Shown piece after piece: positions 13,268 to 43,518 of a DNA stretch of 64,000 nt. Position numbers and translations under genes: made by a program. This DNA is from Pseudothauera lacus (GTDB lineage: Bacteria > Pseudomonadota > Gammaproteobacteria > Burkholderiales > Rhodocyclaceae): positions 1 to 64,000 of the forward strand of contig NZ_PZKC01000012.1 in assembly GCF_003034845.1 (NCBI RefSeq), written 5' to 3'. The notes beneath the pieces are model-generated. The model had not been told where the DNA came from, searched no databases, and saw only the letters and a program-made list of their open reading frames with translations. Every line of letters begins with the position of its first letter. Within the stretch, counting starts at the first letter, position 1.

Positions 13268-13960
13268 ATGTCCATCCTGCGCCTGCTGTTCATCGTCCTG
13301 TTGCTGCTCAACCTGCTGGCCCTGGCGGCCAACCAGGGCTATTTCGGCACTGCGGCACCTGCCGGCGAACCTGAGCGCCTGACCAACCAGCTCCACCCCG
13401 AGCGCATCGCCCTCGACGGCGAACGTCCCCCCGCGGCGCCGCCAGCCCAGCCAGCCCCCTCACAGCCAGCGCCTGCTCCTGCCGCCCCCGCCGGCGCACT
13501 GCCGGTGGCACAAGCCGCGTGCGTCAGCCTCGGTGGGCTCGGCGGCGAAGCTGCCGACACCCTCGCACGCAGCTTCGACGGCCCCCTCTTCGAGGTGCGC
13601 CGCGACAGCACCACGACGACCTCGTCGTGGTGGGTGCGCATCCCCCCCGACGGCACCCGCGAATACGCCGACCGCAAGGGCCGCGAACTGCGCGCGCTGG
13701 GCGTGACGGACTTCTTCATCACCCAGGAGGCTGGCCCCACGCAGTATTCGGTCTCGCTCGGGCTGTTCAAGTCGGAAGCCGCGGCCAACCAGCATCTGGC
13801 CAACCTGCGCCGCGCCGGCGTGCGCAGCGCCGGCATCACCAGCCGCAGCATCACCACCCACAGCCTGCAGATCCGCGGCCCGCAGAGCGAGATCGACACC
13901 CGCCTGGCAAGCGCCGCCCTGCCTGCGGGCACCACCCCGCAGCCATGCACGGAACCCTGA
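13268..13960 (+). CDS. SPOR-domain membrane-anchored protein
   Basis: A 230-residue protein with an N-terminal transmembrane segment (about 3-22), a Pro/Ala linker (about 55-80) and a C-terminal SPOR-type domain (about 85-205, including YSVSLGLFKSEAAANQHLANL). SPOR domains bind denuded septal peptidoglycan, so a cell-division or envelope role is likely. ATG 13268 places the membrane helix at the N-terminus. It follows the TrpB2 gene by 50 nt and precedes a 600-nt repeat-rich gap. Confidence 0.85.
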   Translation: MSILRLLFIVLLLLNLLALAANQGYFGTAAPAGEPERLTNQLHPERIALDGERPPAAPPAQPAPSQPAPAPAAPAGALPVAQAACVSLGGLGGEAADTLARSFDGPLFEVRRDSTTTTSSWWVRIPPDGTREYADRKGRELRALGVTDFFITQEAGPTQYSVSLGLFKSEAAANQHLANLRRAGVRSAGITSRSITTHSLQIRGPQSEIDTRLASAALPAGTTPQPCTEP

Positions 13961-14115
13961 TGCCGATCAAGCCGGCTGCGCCCTTGCGCCGGATTGGCAC
14001 AAACCCTGCCGTGGGCGCGGCCGGGCGAGTCCTGGAGACAGCCACTACCGTTTGCCCTGAGCGAAGCGAGCCCCGCCGCGGGTGTGGCAAAGCAGACGCA
14101 GGAAACGGGTACGCC

Positions 14116-14212
14116 GTTCGCCCTGAGCCTGTCGAAGGGCACTTGATGGCAGTGCCTTCGAACGGGCTTCGACAGGCCGGTCCTGAGCACCGCCGAAGGG
14201 CTCAGCCCCGAC
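14116..14212. repeat. REP-like inverted repeat
   Basis: Starts with GTTCGCCCTGAGCCTGTCG and ends with the roughly complementary GAAGGGCTCAGCCCCGAC, with CTTCGACAGG between. Related blocks recur at 14280-14292 and 14341-14367. The surrounding gap 13961-14556 holds only repeats; I see no gene in it. Confidence 0.6.
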
Positions 14213-14250
14213 GCCCTGTGTGACTGCCGGACTGCCCGCCCATGTCAGTT

Positions 14251-14387
14251 ACTAACCCGGCAACGAAATACGCTATTCCGTTCGCCCTGAGCCCTTCGGC
14301 TACGCTCAGGAGAGCCTTGTCGAAGGGCGTTCGTGCCGACAGGGCTTCGACAGGCTCAGCCCGAACGGTATTTGATTGCCGGGTTAA
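14251..14387. repeat. second REP-like inverted repeat abutting the 176-bp element
   Basis: Outer arms CTAACCCGGCAACGAAATAC and GTATTTGATTGCCGGGTTA are imperfect inverted copies, with GTTCGCCCTGAGC and GCTCAGCCCGAAC inside. The right arm ends in the TTAA at which the MITE-like element is inserted. Confidence 0.6.
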
Positions 14388-14563
14388 CCCGCATTTCTCA
14401 CACCCTCACGTCGCGAGGGGGTCGAGGCGCCGCCGTGGTGCGCCGCACGGACCGATCGACGCCGAAGGCGTAGCTGACACTACGTCGAGGCGGCGTGAGG
14501 GAGTACGGCGTGCCACGGCGAGTGCATCGGCACCCGCAGTAGGGATGGTGTGAGAAATGCGGG
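14388..14563. mobile_element. 176-bp MITE-like element, copy 1
   Basis: Starts CCCGCATTTCTCACACC and ends GGTGTGAGAAATGCGGG, near-perfect terminal inverted repeats, and is flanked on both sides by TTAA. Its reverse complement aligns over its whole length with copy 2 at 43306-43481, which is also exactly 176 bp and is flanked by CTAG. It has no coding capacity. The right end contains the ATG used by coaE. Confidence 0.8.
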
Positions 14564-15183
14564 TTAATAACCCGGTAATCGGCCTCACCGGAGGCATCGG
14601 CAGCGGCAAGAGCGCCGCCTGCGCGCGCTTCGCCGAGCTGGGGGCGGCCATCGTCGATACCGACGACATCGCCCACCAGCTCACCGCTCCCGGCGGCGCA
14701 GCCATCTCCGCCCTGCGCGCAGCCTTCGGCGACGCCATCATCGACCCCCGCGGCGCCCTCGACCGCCCGGCAATGCGCGCCCTCGCCTTTGCCGACGGCG
14801 ACGCGCGCGCCCGCCTGGAGGCCATCCTCCACCCCCTCATCCGCGCCGAGAGCGCGCGCCGCTGCGCTGCTGCCAGCGCCCCCTACATCATCCTCGCGGT
14901 GCCGCTGCTGATCGAAAGTGGCGACTACCGCGCACGCTGCACGCGCATCTGCGTGGTCGACTGCCCTGAAGCGCTGCAGATCGAGCGCGTACGCCGGCGC
15001 AATGCCCTCGACGAGGCGCAGATCCGCGCCATCATCGCCGCCCAGGCCAGCCGCGCGCAGCGCCTCGCCGCCGCCGACGACATCATCGACAACAGCGGCA
15101 GCCTCGCCGACCTCCACCGCCAGGTGGATGCACTGCACCTGCGCTATCTGGCAGCCGCCGCGCCCGGCTCGACATCCTCGTAA
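14557..15183 (+). CDS. coaE: dephospho-CoA kinase
   Basis: Last step of coenzyme A synthesis: ATP-dependent 3'-phosphorylation of dephospho-CoA. 208 residues; P-loop IGLTGGIGSGKS at residues 8-19, DTDDIAHQL near 38, HPLIR near 93 and the lid arginines near 145. The only in-frame start upstream of the P-loop is ATG 14557, which lies within the right inverted repeat of the 176-bp element; an in-frame TGA at 14551 excludes anything longer. No good ribosome site is seen. Its 3' end overlaps the convergent Uma2 gene by 40 nt. coaE is normally followed by zapD and yacG; here two Uma2 genes intervene. Confidence 0.95.
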   Translation: MRVNNPVIGLTGGIGSGKSAACARFAELGAAIVDTDDIAHQLTAPGGAAISALRAAFGDAIIDPRGALDRPAMRALAFADGDARARLEAILHPLIRAESARRCAAASAPYIILAVPLLIESGDYRARCTRICVVDCPEALQIERVRRRNALDEAQIRAIIAAQASRAQRLAAADDIIDNSGSLADLHRQVDALHLRYLAAAAPGSTSS

Positions 15184-15731
15184 AGGGTCGCCAGCGGCAC
15201 GTCCACGCCGATGCTGTGCAGACGGACCACCTGCCCCTCGGCGACCGGATGCAGCACCCACAGGCCTTCGGCGTTCTTGCGGAACAGATCGGCATGGCGG
15301 CGATCCTGCTCGATGAGCAGGTATTCCTGCAGGGTGTCGATGTGCTGGTAGATGCCGAACTTGCGCCCGCGGTCGAAGGCAGCGGTCGATTCCGACAACA
15401 CCTCCACCACCAGTGCCGGGTACTGCTTGGCCAGGGCGGATTCCGGCGTACGGTCGCGCTCGTCGCAGGTAACGAAGACATCCGGATAGAAAACCGCCTC
15501 GGCACGCTCGATGCGCAGCTTCATCCCGGAGACAAAAGTCCGGCAGGGCTTGCCCGCCAGTGCGGCCTTGAGGGCTGAACCAGCATTGAGCAGGATGGTG
15601 TAATGCGCATCCGTGCCGCCCGACATGGCAAACACCTCGCCGGCGAGATACTCGTGGCGCAGTTCCTGAACCTCTTCCCAGCTCATGTAGGCGTCCAGAT
15701 CAAACACGGGGGCGTTCTGCGGCAAGGCCAT
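15144..15731 (-). CDS. Uma2 family endonuclease-like protein (DUF820)
   Basis: A 195-residue PD-(D/E)XK-fold protein of the Uma2/DUF820 family. Family features are seen: HEYLAGEVFAMSGG near residue 25, the catalytic-type YPDVFVTCDERD near 80 and ALVVEVLSESTAAFDRGRKF near 105. The biological role of the family is largely unknown. The start at 15731 is the ATG just before the conserved N-terminus. It is divergent from a paralogue of identical length (164 nt between starts) and overlaps the end of coaE by 40 nt. Confidence 0.88.
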   Translation of the reverse strand: MALPQNAPVFDLDAYMSWEEVQELRHEYLAGEVFAMSGGTDAHYTILLNAGSALKAALAGKPCRTFVSGMKLRIERAEAVFYPDVFVTCDERDRTPESALAKQYPALVVEVLSESTAAFDRGRKFGIYQHIDTLQEYLLIEQDRRHADLFRKNAEGLWVLHPVAEGQVVRLHSIGVDVPLATLYEDVEPGAAAAR

Positions 15732-15895
15732 GGCGGGTCGGCTCCTCATCAACAGCTTCGAGAATAGCCAGCCCCGGCCGGCACGGCAAGCGCAAGAACC
15801 ACCACGTACTCGGCACTCGCGCCAGGCCAACATTGACCGTCTCCGGCAACTTGCCTAAAGTGGGCCATCATGCACACAGCAAGCAGGAGCCCGTG

Positions 15896-16483
15896 ATGGG
15901 TGAAGCACAACCGGTCGCCGCCATCGACCGCGAGATCTACCTGCGCTGGGAAGCCGAACAGGCCGAAAAGCACGAGTACCTCGCCGGCGAGGTCTTCGCC
16001 ATGGTCGGCGTCAGGCGCGAACACGCAATTGTGACCCTCGCCCTCGGCAGTGGTCTGCGCGAGCATCTCAAGGGCACGCCCTGCCAGACCTTTGTCGCCG
16101 ACATGAAACTCCTCGTCGAAGCCGCGGATGCCTGCTTCTACCCCGACGTGATGGTCACCTGCGACGAGCGCGACCGCCGCGCCGAGCTGGTCATCGAACA
16201 CCCCGTTCTGGTGGTCGAAGTACTCTCCGCATCCACCGCCGCCTTCGACCGCGGCGCCAAGTTCGCCGCCTACCGCAAACTGCCCGGCCTGCAGGAGTAC
16301 CTGCTGGTGGACATCGACCAGCGCCGCCTCGAACTCTATCGTCGCAGCGCCGACCACTGGCAGCTCTTCGATACCGACGCCAACGGTACCCTCAGCCTGG
16401 ACAGCGTCGCCATGAGCCTCGGTACCGCGGCTGCCTTCGAGGACCTCCAGCCACCCGCCGCGCAGGCCGCAAGGCCTGGCTGA
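15896..16483 (+). CDS. Uma2 family endonuclease-like protein (DUF820), paralogue
   Basis: Also 195 residues, with the same landmarks as its divergent neighbour: HEYLAGEVFAMVG, YPDVMVTCDERDRR, VLVVEVLSASTAAFDRGAKF and LQEYLLVDIDQRR. Start 15896 is preceded by AGGAG at 6 nt. The two are clearly homologous and probably arose by inverted duplication or joint transfer. The pair separates coaE from zapD. Confidence 0.88.
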   Translation: MGEAQPVAAIDREIYLRWEAEQAEKHEYLAGEVFAMVGVRREHAIVTLALGSGLREHLKGTPCQTFVADMKLLVEAADACFYPDVMVTCDERDRRAELVIEHPVLVVEVLSASTAAFDRGAKFAAYRKLPGLQEYLLVDIDQRRLELYRRSADHWQLFDTDANGTLSLDSVAMSLGTAAAFEDLQPPAAQAARPG

Positions 16484-43290: not shown

Positions 43291-43305
43291 AGGCGGACGC
43301 GCTAG

Positions 43306-43481
43306 CCCGCATTTCTCACCCCGTCCCTACTGCGGGTGCCGATACGCTCGCCGTGGCACGCCGTACTCCCTCGCGCCGCCTCGACGTAGTGTCAGCTACG
43401 CCTTCGGCGCCGCTCGCTCCGTGCGGCGCACCACGACGGCGCCTCGGCCCCCTCGTGACGTGCCAGGGTGAGAAATGCGGG
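43306..43481. mobile_element. 176-bp MITE-like element, copy 2
   Basis: CCCGCATTTCTCACCC at one end and GGGTGAGAAATGCGGG at the other, with CTAG flanking both sides. Same length as copy 1 and close to its reverse complement throughout (for example TACTGCGGGTGCCGAT and GTGGCACGCCGTACTCCCTC are shared). It lies between rlmH and maf. Confidence 0.8.
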
Positions 43482-43518
43482 CTAGAATGCGGTGTTATTC
43501 CACCAACACATCGCCATC

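Follow-up and report, generated by a model that had tools for sequence, protein, structure and literature searches.

Two nested non-autonomous transposons at the 5' end of coaE in Pseudothauera lacus, with the remaining start codon in an inverted repeat

The coaE gene of Pseudothauera lacus, within the 64,000-nt stretch analysed here (positions 1 to 64,000 of contig NZ_PZKC01000012.1, assembly GCF_003034845.1; hereafter the window), carries two nested non-autonomous transposons at its 5' end. Among ATG, GTG and TTG codons, as read from the sequence, ATG 14557 alone can now open the coaE frame; it falls within the right arm of the inverted repeat of the inner element, a miniature inverted-repeat transposable element (MITE). 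coaE, a gene of CoA synthesis, is generally essential. The earlier start, ATG 14242, has been displaced and not destroyed, and we favour, with moderate confidence, a model in which the two nested insertions moved the start to ATG 14557 and initiation there occurs mostly through restart coupled to a 103-codon leader open reading frame (ORF). The gene and the codons around its start are as follows:

14557..15183, plus strand: coaE, starting at the ATG of the MITE (MRVNNPVIGLTGG...), a frame of 208 aa
14581..14613, plus strand: P-loop GLTGGIGSGKS of CoaE, in the translated frame
14551-14553, plus strand: in-frame TGA ending the leader ORF, the sole coaE-frame stop in the 318-nt insert

The identity of the gene was established by profile search, in which TIGR00152 scored 161.9 bits against a cut-off of 65.55 and the Pfam CoaE domain matched residues 7–185 of the product (E 4.5e-57). 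The gene was matched once in its own assembly, for which a completeness of 99.99% is listed, and no second copy was found there. In the coaE frame, TGA 14551–14553 is followed by GAA and then by ATG 14557–14559, and a listing of the codons between this stop and the P-loop gave ATG 14557 as the sole ATG, GTG or TTG; ATC 14578 is the only candidate among the rarer start codons. The first-pass annotation, made from the letters of this stretch, had held that the stop leaves a single start and that this start lies inside the inverted repeat of an element, and both statements were borne out for ATG, GTG and TTG, the right arm spanning 14544–14567. Its P-loop at about 14578 does lie downstream of the ATG, although the motif begins 3 bases further on, at 14581. 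Translation from ATG 14557 would give the predicted N-terminus (M)RVNNPVIGLTGG.

The two elements and their flanks, all of them unstranded, were delimited as follows:

14388-14563: inner MITE, 176 nt (180 nt, or 60 codons, with its putative duplication)
14384-14387: TTAA left flank of the inner MITE, also part of the right end of the outer element
14564-14567: TTAA right flank of the inner MITE, from flank comparison
14252-14387: outer MITE-like element (TTAACCCGGCAA...TTGCCGGGTTAA), 136 nt (138 nt, or 46 codons, with its TA duplication)
14250-14251: TA left flank of the outer element, from flank comparison
14568-14569: TA right flank of the outer element, from flank comparison

The inner element has the characteristics of a MITE, being short, bounded by terminal inverted repeats, too small for a transposase and dispersed in multiple copies. 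Its arms (14384–14407 and 14544–14567) measure 24 nt including the TTAA and are 96% complementary. This repeat is not a chance feature; a 16-mer of it, with up to two mismatches allowed, occurs four times in the window, as both arms of two copies, against an expectation of 0.01 from shuffled sequences. The second of these copies lies at 43303–43484, is 91% identical and has CTAG on both sides. When the best 40 of 119 candidates in the same genome were scored, at least 23 matches spanned nearly the whole element, and a survey of 33 loci recovered 27 copies by their ends (up to three mismatches at each end), 26 of them exactly 176 nt long. Identical 4-mers stand on both sides in 5 of the 27 copies and a central TA in 10, and a 4-bp YTAR duplication is indistinguishable from a 2-bp TA duplication at palindromic sites; on target preferences, an element of the IS5, IS701 or IS630 type would be a candidate parent. 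Altogether 64 ends with at most one mismatch were located in the genome, and near-full-length copies occur in at least 4 of 149 other genomes of the family (G005, G001, G062 and G014), with at most five candidates scored per genome. One contig of the P. lacus assembly (C18; L022, position 1) starts inside a MITE copy, from which it follows that the repeat probably breaks the assembly in places.

The outer element likewise resembles a MITE in its inverted-repeat ends, its TA duplication and its dispersed family; relatives up to 98% identical over its length were found in the same genome, and TA flanks 9 of 16 distinct copies on either side. The left flank of the inner MITE is the end of this second repeat, the inner MITE having been placed in the right terminal TTAA of the outer element, and the order of insertion would have been outer, then inner. 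Among 24 MITE loci, four have the inner MITE at or beside an end of the outer element (L001, at window position 14384, L015 and L016 by script, and L004, a truncated locus with a junction of the same kind, by eye), which suggests that the TTAA ends are preferred targets.

Removal of both elements in silico restores a coaE start. The reading frame concerned begins and ends as follows:

14242-14244, plus strand: displaced earlier coaE start (ATG TCA GTT A...), recovered by joining 14251 to 14570
14242-14553, plus strand: leader ORF of 103 codons, opening at the displaced ATG, crossing both elements and closing at TGA 14551

Joining 14251 to 14570, across the TA flanks of the outer element, yields ATG TCA GTT AAC CCG GTA ATC GGC CTC (MSVNPVIGLTGGIGSGK, MSVNPVIGLTGG) in frame, so that the outer element sits in codons 3–4 of an earlier reading frame beginning MSVNPVIG. 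The insert of 318 nt is a multiple of three, as is each of its steps (138 and 180 nt), and ATG 14242 is intact, in the coaE frame and 315 nt upstream of ATG 14557. The predicted first residues change from MSVNPVIG to MRVNNPVIG (MSVNP to MRVNNP). In the reconstructed intermediate, with the outer element alone, the frame is fully open, and CoaE would accordingly have had 46 extra residues near its N-terminus. These results qualify the claim that insertion of an element had replaced the native start of coaE: the only start left does lie in a MITE end, but the earlier ATG survives in frame, displaced by 315 nt. Similarly, the assignment of the start to a MITE inverted repeat stands, but its flanks place that MITE in a nested pair. 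A single element replacing a single start was therefore rejected, on the flanks of the two elements and on the surviving ATG.

A junction built of repeats raises the question of an assembly error, with the real coaE start elsewhere. The MITE has many near-identical copies, one of which a contig begins within; nevertheless, each element is bounded by short flanks that agree with each other, an in-frame CoaE N-terminus of ordinary length reappears when the outer flanks are joined, and the order of coaE and the SPOR-domain gene upstream of it is as in relatives. We regard such an error as very unlikely.

The end of the MITE carries one further feature that bears on how ribosomes may reach ATG 14557:

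14540-14549, plus strand: Shine-Dalgarno-like site at the end of the MITE, spaced 7 nt from ATG 14557, with a predicted 16S-tail pairing of -9.3 kcal/mol

Only 27 of the 1831 ATGs in the window, ATG 14557 included, reach this pairing energy. However, with both MITE arms in the RNA the predicted probability that ATG 14557 is unpaired is 0.0, and it rises to 0.86–0.90 when the RNA lacks the 5' arm, that is, begins at 14404 or later. The fold of the MITE hairpin has a z-score of -11.3, and any MITE would fold in this way. Since in an RNA with both arms the hairpin is predicted to hide both the Shine-Dalgarno-like site and the ATG, translation from this ATG most likely requires ribosomes already reading the leader.

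The coupled restart that we favour would have arisen as follows: (i) the outer element inserted into codons 3–4 of coaE and added 46 open codons in frame; (ii) the inner MITE entered the TTAA of the outer element, adding 60 codons and ending with a stop 3 bases before the ATG of its repeat; (iii) ribosomes would now start at the old ATG 14242 and translate the leader ORF; (iv) these ribosomes would unfold the MITE hairpin, terminate at TGA 14551 and restart 3 nt on, at ATG 14557; and (v) this restart would take over the role of the stop-start overlap of the SPOR gene and coaE that is found in relatives. The short distance, with 3 nt between TGA 14551–14553 and ATG 14557, agrees with the description of coupling as most efficient at overlaps or very short distances (PMC10666635, in the passages available), and in one of the two coupling models put forward in the available text of PMC12548453 the upstream ribosome unfolds a hairpin.

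Several observations weigh against this explanation. The Shine-Dalgarno pairing of the old ATG 14242 is weak (-3.2), and this ATG lies 18 nt past the stop of ORF-A, an upstream ORF in the coaE frame; in six pairs examined, almost no coupling was left at a gap of about 20 nt, although one pair tolerates 15 nt and studies with longer gaps are cited, and in three Escherichia coli pairs a gap of just 2 nt lowered coupling by 5, 20 and 70% (PMC10666635, from the portions consulted). In one screen, coupling tended to be poorer where structure was predicted directly behind the upstream stop (PMC12548453, as excerpted). The stretch after the leader stop TGA 14551 is itself predicted to be paired, which lowered our confidence slightly. 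Lastly, the openness of the leader is unremarkable, with 6.1% of shuffles equally open and 10.2% of them showing at most two stops in 13960–14556; openness as evidence of selection was discarded on these figures. The leader ORF had no Pfam match.

The main rival to coupled restart is direct initiation on a shorter transcript, begun or processed inside the MITE, in which ATG 14557 and the Shine-Dalgarno-like site would suffice, no hairpin would form and the leader ORF would be irrelevant. The strong pairing at 7-nt spacing and the predicted accessibility of the ATG in RNAs lacking the 5' arm lend it a substantial, though lesser, likelihood. Opposing it, no sigma-70-like promoter was found in 13800–14640 by a simple consensus scan for this one promoter type, a limit that tells against coupled restart, and the SPOR overlap in relatives suggests, without proving, expression from upstream. 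The same kind of scan found no intrinsic terminator in 13800–14640. A further possibility is readthrough of TGA 14551 from ATG 14242 to give a 313-residue CoaE with an N-terminal extension. From ATG 14242 to the end of the gene the coaE frame indeed contains no stop other than this TGA, yet an ATG with a good Shine-Dalgarno-like site directly follows it and no sign of UGA readthrough was found, no search for one having been made; among the explanations considered, we give readthrough the least credence.

The coupled restart gains its context from the upstream region, which contains:

13268..13960, plus strand: SPOR-domain protein gene upstream of coaE (Pfam SPOR, 34.3 bits; start and stop checked)
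13960..14223, plus strand: ORF-A in the coaE frame, from the ATG overlapping the SPOR stop to TGA 14221-14223
14046-14208, plus strand: older copy of the outer repeat's superfamily, lacking recognisable ends, between the SPOR gene and coaE

A coaE match was obtained in 60 of the 61 genomes searched, that of P. lacus included, the one without a match being 79% complete; the nearest named isolate among the CoaE matches was Cognatazoarcus halotolerans (Rhodocyclales), at 68%. All five same-genus relatives lack the insertion, and in all five the coaE start codon overlaps the SPOR stop, the overlap being 4 nt or, in L112 with its two candidate ATGs, either 4 or 1 nt. Pairing with the 16S tail is poor at these starts (-5.1 to +0.3 kcal/mol), which presumably rely on the SPOR overlap. 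Comparison with such uninterrupted loci, proposed earlier as a check, showed that the first residues differ from those of the window in all five relatives; 7–9 residues precede GLTGG in the relatives, as against 7 formerly and 8 now in the window. The window SPOR protein can be aligned, right up to its C-terminal residues, with the products of the genes immediately upstream of coaE in the five same-genus genomes, and its stop, TGA 13958–13960, shares a base with ATG 13960 of the coaE frame. Taken with the overlap in relatives, this indicates that the coaE start has probably moved twice, from 13960 to 14242 and then to 14557. The start of ORF-A, for which no Pfam match was found, would probably mark the ancestral position, and the putative first move was accompanied by the older, decayed repeat at 14046–14208, which matches a second site in the genome at 94% identity over 163 nt although the ends do not align.

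The history before 14242 also admits another account, in which the sequence to the right of the insert (TTAACCCGGTAAT after joining) is not native coaE but the footprint of an earlier outer-element end, the MSVNP start is partly derived from the element and the ancestral start was ATG 13960 at the SPOR stop. Twenty of the 21 TAACCCGGYAAT sites in the genome continue as outer-element ends, the joined site being the 21st, and the reversed pattern occurs 0 times; the overlap with the SPOR stop, both in the five relatives and in the coaE frame here, fits this account as well. On the other hand, the joined site alone has T for C, its match ends after 12–13 nt, and P-V-I-G is like the N-termini of relatives. 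We consider a footprint possible, though less likely than not; it is compatible with the coupled restart. The sequence at 14568–14579, immediately right of the insert, is one base off the end of the outer element; this likeness may be the footprint of an earlier copy or a coincidence within the codons P-V-I, and the last step is unaffected. Downstream, two Uma2-family genes on opposite strands (15144–15833, minus; 15833–16483, plus) lie between coaE and zapD, whereas in the same-genus L114 a ZapD-like frame was seen by eye directly after coaE.

Whether the inner MITE family behaves similarly elsewhere was judged from outward frames listed from MITE-like ends at 60 loci of the same genome, which need not cover all 64 ends. 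In all 16 readable copies of the 27, no stop interrupts the frame before the terminal TGA; in the other 11 the stop-start motif is not intact and the frame was left unread. Besides coaE, 17 outward frames of at least 60 aa were scanned against Pfam, frames of L027 and L242 that start away from the MITE having been dropped, and three had matches: an Asp/Glu racemase (L002), a chromate transporter (L005), in which the domain does not begin before residue 228, and a JmjC/RoxA-like protein (L242). At L002:1674–2522, on contig C40, the MITE ATG is in frame with the racemase gene, which we take to be murI (our own label), 16 codons before its likely own start MDASRPIGVFDSG, and the MITE end has the same Shine-Dalgarno-like site (-9.3). 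At L242, on the minus strand from 1426 down, a degenerate MITE-like end with two mismatches is in frame with the JmjC/RoxA-like protein, 8 codons before its likely own ATG. Both genes, then, have a likely ATG of their own further in.

In the P. lacus genome, 40 of 51 distinct MITE ends reach a pairing of -6 kcal/mol, compared with 11.5% of all window ATGs, but only 2 of 15 ends in relatives do so; because the copies are related and so few ends in relatives comply, it is doubtful that the Shine-Dalgarno-like site is a selected family trait. For the same reasons we further reduced an already low estimate for the idea that the family is a mobile stop-and-restart cassette in this lineage, with one end providing a Shine-Dalgarno-like site, a stop and an ATG reading outward, and now think it improbable. 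If it were true, the cassette would make insertion near gene starts tolerable even in essential genes, and the murI-like gene at L002 would be a second case. As no sign of selection or benefit was seen here, the earlier description of the MITE end as 'domesticated' is unsupported.

The case is neat and reconstructable. With the former start still readable, it shows how a generally essential gene can carry two transposon insertions in its first codons, the second of which gave a new start codon and a site resembling a ribosome-binding site while leaving the predicted N-terminus almost unchanged. It is a natural experiment on whether a core enzyme can be sustained by ribosomes restarting at a transposon end, and it calls for caution in annotating gene starts near MITEs.

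Several known systems resemble parts of this arrangement, and the sources cited below are represented by the passages available to us. The inverted repeat of MITEAba12 from Acinetobacter, read outward, is reported to encode MQQS, the four opening residues of neighbouring genes, in three cases judged by sequence; that element has a predicted outward promoter, to which transcripts were attributed (PMC6382973). The two cases share a start codon of a real gene in the inverted repeat of a non-autonomous element, with no other ATG, GTG or TTG available here; they differ in the gene, which here is coaE, and in its surroundings: no promoter was found at 13800–14640, one element lies inside another, the former ATG can still be read, and 3 nt separate a stop from the new ATG. 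The description of a MITE-end start as unusual is thus tempered by the MITEAba12 precedent. A search of the open-access literature with one wording, which proves little, found no paper on a new start codon from a transposable element in a bacterial essential gene, and no report was found that combines nesting, a conserved core enzyme, a former start that is still present and a hairpin in which translation would stop and restart.

Rickettsia palindromic elements, enterobacterial RU elements and Coxiella QMITEs are short mobile elements in frame with genes, RU-2 giving residues 4–35 of wbbJ (PMC10969869, PMC2759123, PMC5896051). The probable intermediate at coaE, with 46 open codons added, would have been a fusion of this kind; those elements, in the text available, fuse into the protein or supply 3' ends and stops, whereas the second element here would stop the fusion and restart the gene. 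In pneumococcal BOX elements, element-borne start codons open transcribed ORFs (PMC3049150), but the ORF at coaE is a conserved enzyme and its Shine-Dalgarno-like site is strong. The short stop-start distance and the downstream start in a predicted hairpin recall translational coupling by reinitiation or unfolding (PMC10666635, PMC12548453), with the difference that the upstream ORF of this predicted coupling derives from transposons and opens with the former ATG of coaE itself. Start codons in MITE ends have thus been reported before, and the combination at coaE is a new variation on them.
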